From: a virus
IMG/VR virus record: IMGVR_UViG_3300029259_000438
Span: 1-31,198 of that record
Reading direction: 5' to 3' (one strand)
DNA: 31,198 bases
The notes beneath the pieces are model-generated. The model saw nothing but the letters and a program-made list of their open reading frames with translations, was not told the DNA's origin and ran no database searches. Shown here one piece after another: positions 3,013-5,327 of the stretch; the stretch's first letter is position 1; each line of letters begins with the position of its first letter. Made by a program: the position numbers and the translations under genes.

Positions 3013-3051
3013 ACTTGGATACCAGAAAAACCTCCATTAACTTAAAAACAC

Positions 3052-3221
3052 AGGTGTTAAAAGGGAATAAAGGGGTTAAAAGAGGAAATAGGGAAATAAG
3101 GGATATGAGATATAGGGTATATGGGATGGAGGAATATGGAGAATAAGGGAATATGGGGAATGAGGGAGATAGGTTGGAATATTGGGATATAGTGTGTATA
3201 TTGGTAATAATATAAAAATAT
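3052..3221 (+). other. Cytosine-free, G-run-rich noncoding tract
   Basis: No cytosine occurs on the + strand for 170 consecutive bases. The core (about 3060-3190) is strongly purine-rich and holds nine runs of three or four G, many spaced 5-6 bases apart as GGGAATAT, GGGGAATGA and GGGAGATA. The units look like a degenerate short tandem repeat. The tract fills most of the gap between the 147-aa and 62-aa genes. A transcript of it could not form G-C pairs within itself but could form G-quadruplex-like stacks. The function is unknown. Confidence 0.75.
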
Positions 3222-3227
3222 CAAATT

Positions 3228-3435: not shown

Positions 3436-4212
3436 ATGAAATTAACAGCAAATCAAATCCAAGAAAATTGGGAAGAGTTTATGGGTAATATTGATACTCA
3501 CATCTCATCACCTCGTAAAGAGAAATTAATAGAGTTTTATGAAAAGTATCAAGAGCGTATTTCGCTTATGCCTGCTGCTCATAAAAAAGAATACCATTCT
3601 GCCTTTCCGGGTGGTTATGTTGATCATGTTAATCGTGTTGTTAGAGGTGCTTTATCCATGTCAAGTGTTTGGGAGAGTTTTGATTGTGATATGGCTACAT
3701 TTACCACTGAGGAATTAATATTCTCAGCTATAAATCACGATTTAGGAAAAATGGGTGATTCAGAACATGAATCTTATATCCCCCAAACAGACAAATGGAG
3801 AAGGGATAAATTAGGTGAAGATTATATGTTTAATAAAAAGCTAGCATTTGCAGGTGTCCCAGATCGTGGATTATTTCTACTTCAGGAACATGACATTAAG
3901 TATACATTTAATGAAATGATAGCAATCCAAACACATGATGGTTTATATGACTCAGCAAATGAGAAATACTTAAAAGGGTATTTAGTTGAGCAAAAACCTA
4001 GAACATCACTTCCATTTATATTACATCAGGCAGATATGATGGCTGCTCGTATAGAATGGGAGATTGAATGGTTGCCTAAATTTAAAAGTGGGGATAGTAA
4101 ACCAAAATCAAACTTTGCATTAGATAGTAAAAAAACAACTATTGCTGTAAAAAATAAAGCATTAGGTTCTATTAAAAGTGAGGGTTTAAAAAATATGTTA
4201 GATAACTTATGA
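3436..4212 (+). CDS. HD-domain phosphohydrolase-like protein
   Basis: This 258-residue protein has the ligand pattern of HD-superfamily metal-dependent hydrolases: H54 and H64 in HSAFPGGYVDHV, the HD pair H101-D102 in INHDLGKMG, H167-D168 in IQTHDGLY, and D200 in LHQADMMAAR. The order GG-x-x-x-H, HDLGK, then H-x-AD resembles the HD domain of YhaM-type 3'-5' exoribonucleases and other nucleotide- or RNA-acting HD enzymes. No nucleic-acid-binding OB domain is attached. The substrate could be a nucleotide, RNA or a signalling nucleotide, and the sequence does not say which. The stop overlaps the next start (ATGA), so it is translationally coupled to the membrane protein. Confidence 0.78.
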   Translation: MKLTANQIQENWEEFMGNIDTHISSPRKEKLIEFYEKYQERISLMPAAHKKEYHSAFPGGYVDHVNRVVRGALSMSSVWESFDCDMATFTTEELIFSAINHDLGKMGDSEHESYIPQTDKWRRDKLGEDYMFNKKLAFAGVPDRGLFLLQEHDIKYTFNEMIAIQTHDGLYDSANEKYLKGYLVEQKPRTSLPFILHQADMMAARIEWEIEWLPKFKSGDSKPKSNFALDSKKTTIAVKNKALGSIKSEGLKNMLDNL

Positions 4213-4484
4213 TAGTTGCAATAATAATACTAGCAATATTGGCGGCATCTCTAGGATATACCACCTTTAATCTCTTAAGAAAAACAGAAACTGCAGAAGA
4301 TATTGTAGTTAACTATCTTATATACTTAGATAAAATATCTAAAGTAATTGAGATGTCCGATAAAAGACTTAAACAAGTTGATCATAAGGGAACATTTAAA
4401 AGTGACGATGAAGTTGGATTCTTTTTTGAAGAGATAAAACAAATTCAAGATATTTTAAATGATTTTAATTTAAAAAAACTATAA
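4209..4484 (+). CDS. Small membrane-anchored protein
   Basis: This 91-residue protein begins with a hydrophobic segment (IVAIIILAILAASLGYTTF) followed by a basic flank (LLRKTE). That is a single N-terminal anchor with the remainder probably cytoplasmic. The rest is helical and charged, with FFFEEIKQIQDILNDFNLKKL at the end. No lipobox is visible. It overlaps the HD-domain gene by 4 bases and precedes the sigma gene by 9. The role is unknown. Small anchored proteins in this position could tether a partner to the membrane (inference). Confidence 0.75.
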   Translation: MIVAIIILAILAASLGYTTFNLLRKTETAEDIVVNYLIYLDKISKVIEMSDKRLKQVDHKGTFKSDDEVGFFFEEIKQIQDILNDFNLKKL

Positions 4485-5319: not shown

Positions 5320-5327
5320 TATTTATA
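5320..5327 (+). promoter_or_regulatory. Late-promoter-like element TATTTATA ahead of baseplate operon
   Basis: TATTTATAACTAAAA stands 9 bases before the ATG at 5337. It is the first of the series in front of structural genes. The core is the reverse complement of TATAAATA, the T4 late-promoter core. If it acts as a -10 element, transcription would begin only a few bases before the start codon. Confidence 0.6.

Follow-up and report, generated by a model that had tools for sequence, protein, structure and literature searches.

Why should 170 consecutive bases between two phage genes be free of cytosine on one strand? The question was raised by a stretch of viral DNA of 31,198 nucleotides (IMG/VR virus record IMGVR_UViG_3300029259_000438; referred to here as the window), the plus strand of which consisted only of A (70), G (58) and T (42) from position 3052 to 3221. 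An earlier note on this DNA had reported the run and was correct as to its length and limits; both flanking bases, C3051 and C3222, were cytosines. To our knowledge, late-gene timing and the start of replication have been little studied in Bacteroidota phages, and we know of no described phage element whose defining trait is a lack of C starting at +3 of a single promoter. A literature search for C-free or G-rich phage leaders found nothing relevant. The tract is a single, conserved control region that is easy to recognise and leads to a testable prediction. The features of the locus are given in Table 1.

Table 1. Features at and around the C-free tract, in window coordinates.
Feature	Coordinates	Strand	Remarks
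Upstream gene, 147 aa	2569..3012	+	Stop codon 2 bases before P1; homologues in relatives; no Pfam or PHROG match
Predicted promoter P1	3015..3043	+	TTGG (3015-3018), 19-base spacer, TAACTT (3038-3043); Bacteroidota type (TTG ... TAnnTTTG)
Predicted +1 of P1 transcript, A3050	3050..3050	+	Placed by distance from the promoter; +2 is C3051
C-free, G-rich initially transcribed tract	3052..3221	+	+3 to +172 of the predicted P1 transcript
Predicted promoter P2	3174..3202	+	Located where the tract ends on its 3' side; TTGG-N19-TATATT, with +1 predicted at A3209
First operon gene, 62 aa	3228..3416	+	Small, probably coiled coil (read from sequence)
258-aa protein	3436..4212	+	Homologue annotated as phosphohydrolase in Flavobacterium phage immuto
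91-aa protein	4209..4484	+	Probably membrane-anchored (hydrophobic N-terminus read directly)
Probable sigma factor (T4 gp55-like late sigma), 270 aa	4494..5306	+	Weak family and structure matches
Late-type promoter motif TATTTATAA	5320..5328	+	Ahead of structural genes

Composition of the C-free tract

The tract was more than twice as long as the next-longest C-free run in the window, which measured 78 bases. Assuming independent bases, the expected number of 170-base C-free runs was 9e-9 at the C content of the window, which was 14.7% rather than the value of about 13% assumed earlier, and 0.0096 at a C content of 7%. When the window was simulated 150 times with an order-3 Markov model, the longest run without C measured 64 bases at the median and 114 at most. 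The expectation that such a run would occur far less than once by chance was thus borne out, and the tract is not ordinary composition. Ten runs of GGG or longer were counted, starting at 3063, 3072, 3091, 3100, 3115, 3123, 3147, 3155, 3164 and 3184, one more than the nine claimed. The claimed rhythm of 10-15 bases was not recovered; runs of GG or longer were spaced 8-9 bases apart, with 11 of the 17 intervals falling between 7 and 10 bases (p = 0.0035 versus dinucleotide shuffles). The suggestion of a degenerate tandem repeat stood in part, as far as this spacing and the periods of 9 and 17 found in the tract by Tandem Repeats Finder support it; these periods were weak.

As had been stated, the tract lay between two genes and had no good reading frame. 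Stops occurred throughout the plus-strand frames, and a hidden gene was rejected. A minus-strand frame that was open across the tract was considered trivial, because a G-free strand cannot encode TAG or TGA, leaving TAA as the only possible stop. Searches of the window gave no Rfam match above the gathering score and no tRNA match, and the suggestion of a packaging signal found no support; a replication signal, also suggested, is possible by way of an R-loop. When genomes were scanned for similar tracts, as the earlier note had advised, this was the sole strongly G-rich, C-free non-coding stretch per genome in the longest of the relatives inspected, which measured 163 kb and 67 kb. Among the other C-free runs on the coding strand of the window, the records G001 and G003, and the cultured relative immuto, the strongest cases were nearly all coding. 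As a separate observation, gene gp143 of immuto (NC_055915, 68298-68678) was almost C-free over about 380 bases.

A composition step in register with P1

Promoters of the Bacteroidota housekeeping type carry TTG about 20 bases before TAnnTTTG, a consensus in use in the literature, and transcription is expected to start seven bases past the last T of the promoter. Both P1 and P2 fitted this type (TTG-N20-TAnnTT), the last two consensus bases being variable. On sequence grounds P1 is expected to be a conserved host-type promoter, and we infer that it is transcribed and that the conserved A at 3050 is its start. With A3050 as the predicted +1, the C-free run begins exactly at +3 and ends exactly at +172.

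Relatives were collected by scanning IMG/VR twice with the flanking proteins, which gave 156 loci, 98 distinct gaps and 73 gaps with P1; these 73 were chosen by the promoter alone and never by C content. Although the search (TTGG-N19-TAnnTT) allowed spacers of 18-21 bases, the P1 spacer was 19 bases in all 73. The predicted +1 was A in 99% of these relatives and was followed by C and then by R-G-G; the corresponding site was A in 44% of 153 further promoters at these loci. On average across the 73 relatives, C made up 28.5% and 21.1% of two decades of the P1 spacer, 8% of the first ten transcribed bases (with the C at +2 included), 0.4% at +10 to +19 and less than 3% up to +59. Across the same start, G rose from 6-10% to 26-36%, about 33%. 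There was no C at all from +3 to +52 in 41 of the 73 relatives, and two or fewer in 70. From +3 to +32 there were on average 0.36 C and 9.93 G at P1, compared with 2.27 C and 4.44 G at the 153 other promoters (TTGG-N19-TATATT); the other promoters of these phages lack a C-free, G-rich start.

A comparison of the same gap in related phages had been named beforehand as a possible refutation, and the relatives do carry the tract in that gap. The description of the tract as a leader also held, since it begins at +3 of a promoter that is conserved in the 73 relatives. Because the composition boundary follows the promoter register, the tract acts through transcription or through the transcript and not as a double-stranded binding array. 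It is best filed among promoter-leader or transcription-primed control elements.

Further downstream the average A+T content of the relatives was about 80-85% from +80 on, with an A-rich stretch between the G-rich tract and the start codon. At the 3' end of the tract (3197-3227 in the window) a P2-like site was found in 26 of the 73 relatives and a GGTACC-type palindrome or hairpin in 27, with both in one; the two are nearly mutually exclusive. An apparent 3' half of a tRNA (GGTTCGATTCCCATCTATAGAGCT), possibly an inserted tRNA remnant, was seen in the leader of one relative (L072), in the gap before the homologue of the 62-aa gene.

Exchanges between A and G were 1.86 times as frequent per site as those between C and T in closely related leaders, the ratio being 0.87 at third positions in the adjacent gene; C is therefore avoided, whereas A and G are exchanged for one another. 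In 10 of the 73 relatives, at several separate places in the tree, G fell below 20% of the first 70 bases, and in nearly all of these C still made up 1-3% of the same bases. The AT-type leaders among them had no GGG runs. In the cultured relative immuto (NC_055915) P1 was present, the leader was short and AT-rich, and the richness in G-runs was absent. The tree of the 258-aa protein places G-richness as the older and wider state, from which the loss of G-runs arose several times. Words turn over and C-poverty persists, so that selection in the initially transcribed region appears to favour a strand composition and not any particular sequence.

A neutral, unselected spacer of low complexity between two promoters, grown by slippage, would account for the varying distance between +1 and the start codon (roughly 68 to 196 bases in the relatives) and for the longest tracts, those of the window and of locus L098, which were separate repeat expansions. 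These independent expansions nevertheless kept C out of both tracts, C stayed at or below 3% from +10 to +59 in 73 divergent relatives, and the composition switched at the predicted +1. Furthermore, when P1 followed by 34 C-free bases was searched for among 84,980 species genomes, only one of the two matches was true, and this was itself a relative of the window phage. A neutral origin is improbable, and the tract is very probably a conserved element that keeps register with P1.

The true match (L301) was a phage contig carrying the same phage genes and binned into the Flavobacteriales MAG NAT55 assembly, which points to Flavobacteriales as the hosts. The second match, in Bizionia (L300), lay inside a gene and was rejected as a chance resemblance; look-alikes of P1 with C-free DNA in HAD-phosphatase genes (L223, L255, L262 and L276) were likewise dismissed as coding coincidences. 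When viral contigs were scanned for P1 alone, 30 C-free bases followed it at 52 of the 76 sites with these neighbouring genes and at 6 of the 41 other sites, and several of the latter six were coding. Relatives of the window phage were frequent in the viral metagenome collection. In three related contigs (L182, which is record G008, L239 and L247), P1 with the same ACAGGGGTTTTGA start preceded a DNA primase gene; the gap ahead of the sigma operon had no tract in G008.

The operon downstream of P1 and P2

P1 is located at the junction between a region of small genes and the operon of the probable sigma factor. Members of the 270-aa protein family matched phrog_234, "late sigma transcription factor", in 17 of 26 cases (best E 0.0017) and a phage sigma family in 7 of 26 (best E 3.3e-4); the match of the window protein alone to phrog_234 was weak (E 0.4). 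An AlphaFold model of this protein (mean pLDDT 71) gave weak Foldseek matches, nearly all of them to RNA polymerase sigma subunits (best E 0.049). From these weak but concordant matches, the product is probably a gp55-like late sigma factor.

The motif AATATTTATAAtnAAA was found directly before late genes in the window, at 5320, 8878, 20518, 25439 and 29420, and occurred 23 times in G001, the 163-kb relative. In this relative, 23 of the 27 plus-strand copies of TATTTATAA lay 90 bases or less from a gene start, and there were six copies on the minus strand. Judged by its sequence and position, AATATTTATAAtnAAA is a probable late promoter motif that the sigma factor encoded by the phage may recognise. 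Taken together, the sigma-type matches and the late motif before late genes indicate that the operon headed by the tract-bearing gap, which is served by P1 and P2, probably supplies the late sigma factor, and that the genes just downstream of P1 probably turn on late infection.

Possible functions of the leader and known systems

The tract is best explained, by analogy and tentatively, as an R-loop-prone leader of P1 that is possibly a transcription-primed origin like T4 oriF and/or an activator of P2; this reading is named best because no single RNA-level version was judged more probable. In the mechanism that we infer, the nascent G-rich, C-free RNA would stay unfolded and, once the polymerase has passed, would re-anneal to the template strand, which is C-rich. 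The resulting R-loop would hold open the A-rich start region and the 100-200 bp that extend to P2, and would serve as a transcription-primed replication start in the manner of T4 oriF and/or activate P2; it might also bear on the timing of the late sigma factor. A C-poor, G-rich RNA start, conserved across dozens of Flavobacteriales (Bacteroidota) phage relatives, may in this way help the DNA to open through an RNA-DNA hybrid.

R-loops near a start site are favoured by G-rich non-template strands (PMC6442632). The purine-rich RNA of the tract cannot form G-C hairpins with itself, and its template is C-rich. In most relatives no other segment tested at the locus favoured the RNA:DNA hybrid over the DNA duplex more strongly (medians: z -3.2 and percentile 0; z = -6.0 for the tract of the window), these values, computed from nearest-neighbour energies, serving as a ranking only. 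Where P2 is present it would provide a normal short leader, and in those cases the tract is not needed as a ribosome leader.

Counting against an R-loop are the low-G and AT-type relatives, the latter with unremarkable hybrid energies (z about -0.6 to -1.8), and the AT-rich leader of immuto. Neither GC skew nor AT skew changed sign at the tract of G001 or of immuto, which is weak evidence and argues against a bidirectional origin only. Finally, the 8-9-base GG spacing is not explained by an R-loop and fits an RNA-binding protein better.

That spacing leads to the possibility, nearly as likely as the R-loop and also drawn by analogy, that the tract acts as the single-stranded 5' untranslated RNA of the late-sigma operon, on the GG repeats of which a single-strand RNA-binding protein (a phage SSB or a host protein) would bind cooperatively and control translation or decay as at T4 gene 32. 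GG runs 7-10 bases apart were more frequent than in shuffles in L098 (p 0.0005) as well as in the window, and the words AGG, TAGG, GGT and AGAGA were over-represented relative to dinucleotide shuffles. The window leader was also much less folded than composition-balanced shuffles (z 3.7), and the family less than local segments (median z 1.1). However, the sole invariant word was ACRGG at +2 to +6, the AT-type relatives lack GG repeats, and P2, where present, would yield an mRNA without the tract. GGAG was depleted, hence there is no CsrA-type signal, and a CsrA-like GGA array was rejected, GGA-type words not being enriched.

It is unlikely, but consistent with the same low folding of the leader relative to the surrounding sequence, that the long untranslated RNA from P1 to the first start codon must simply avoid hairpins and C-rich Rho loading sites, with C purged and the G-runs a by-product. 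C-poverty was indeed more constant than G-richness, the low-G relatives included; an A-rich leader would nevertheless suffice for this purpose, a G content of about 33% would not be needed, and the other leaders of these phages do contain C. Considered jointly, the RNA-level readings (a leader to which a protein binds, or one that has to stay unstructured or devoid of Rho sites) have close to an even chance.

The G-quadruplex-forming leader proposed in the earlier note fared poorly. The G4Hunter score was high compared with local segments (median z 3.5) and two-tetrad motifs occurred in 47 of the 73 leaders, but the canonical three-tetrad motif (four runs of three or more G with loops of 1-7 bases) was present in only 2 of the 73 and was absent from the window, and the G-runs have been lost in several lineages. 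A G-quadruplex switch in the leader DNA or RNA is highly improbable. As a side observation, immuto (NC_055915, 18-37 kb) carries a full queuosine/7-deazaguanine gene set with a DNA guanine transglycosylase; if the window phage also modifies G, the G-rich tract would be heavily modified.

If an R-loop forms, T4 would be joined by a second phage lineage for which R-loop-driven control has sequence rules; if the tract acts at the RNA level instead, it would represent an unusual class of leader that selects against one base. The broader proposal is doubtful, namely a phage cis-element class in Bacteroidota phages defined by strand composition, in which a C-less, G-rich leader from +3 of one promoter per genome would form an R-loop that opens the late-sigma control region and/or primes replication.

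Among known systems, the translational operator of T4 gene 32 is a long, unstructured 5' leader that bears repeats, is A+U-rich and has a 5' pseudoknot. The tract resembles this leader in length, lack of structure and repeats; the A+U-richness of the operator is a difference, and no 5' pseudoknot was visible in the tract. The primary origin of T7 has the tandem promoters phi1.1A and phi1.1B followed by an A+T-rich region. Two tandem promoters with an A+T-rich region after them are also predicted here; T7, in contrast, has a single-subunit polymerase and no G-rich, C-free tract. In the mammalian mitochondrial LSP/CSBII primer region and in class-switch regions, which are known R-loop formers, the non-template strand carries clusters of G after a promoter. 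The same order of promoter and non-template G clusters is seen at the tract, with R-loops being known in those systems only; there is no homology, and the tract has longer, AT-rich linkers and few canonical G-quadruplex motifs.

T4 oriF and oriG differ from the tract in that their element is an A+T-rich unwinding element and not a G-rich, C-free one, and in that T4 uses MotA middle promoters; the origin role of the tract is putative. Several T4 origins lie at transcription-strand switches, unlike the tract. At oriF and oriG a promoter is combined with a downstream unwinding element where the transcript forms an R-loop, and no specific R-loop sequence is required (PMC3016281). The promoter directly upstream that reads into the element at these origins has its counterpart in the predicted P1 of the 73 relatives. 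In both cases a promoter of the host-polymerase type precedes about 100 bp where the transcript could form an R-loop, and composition prevails over fixed sequence (PMC3016281).
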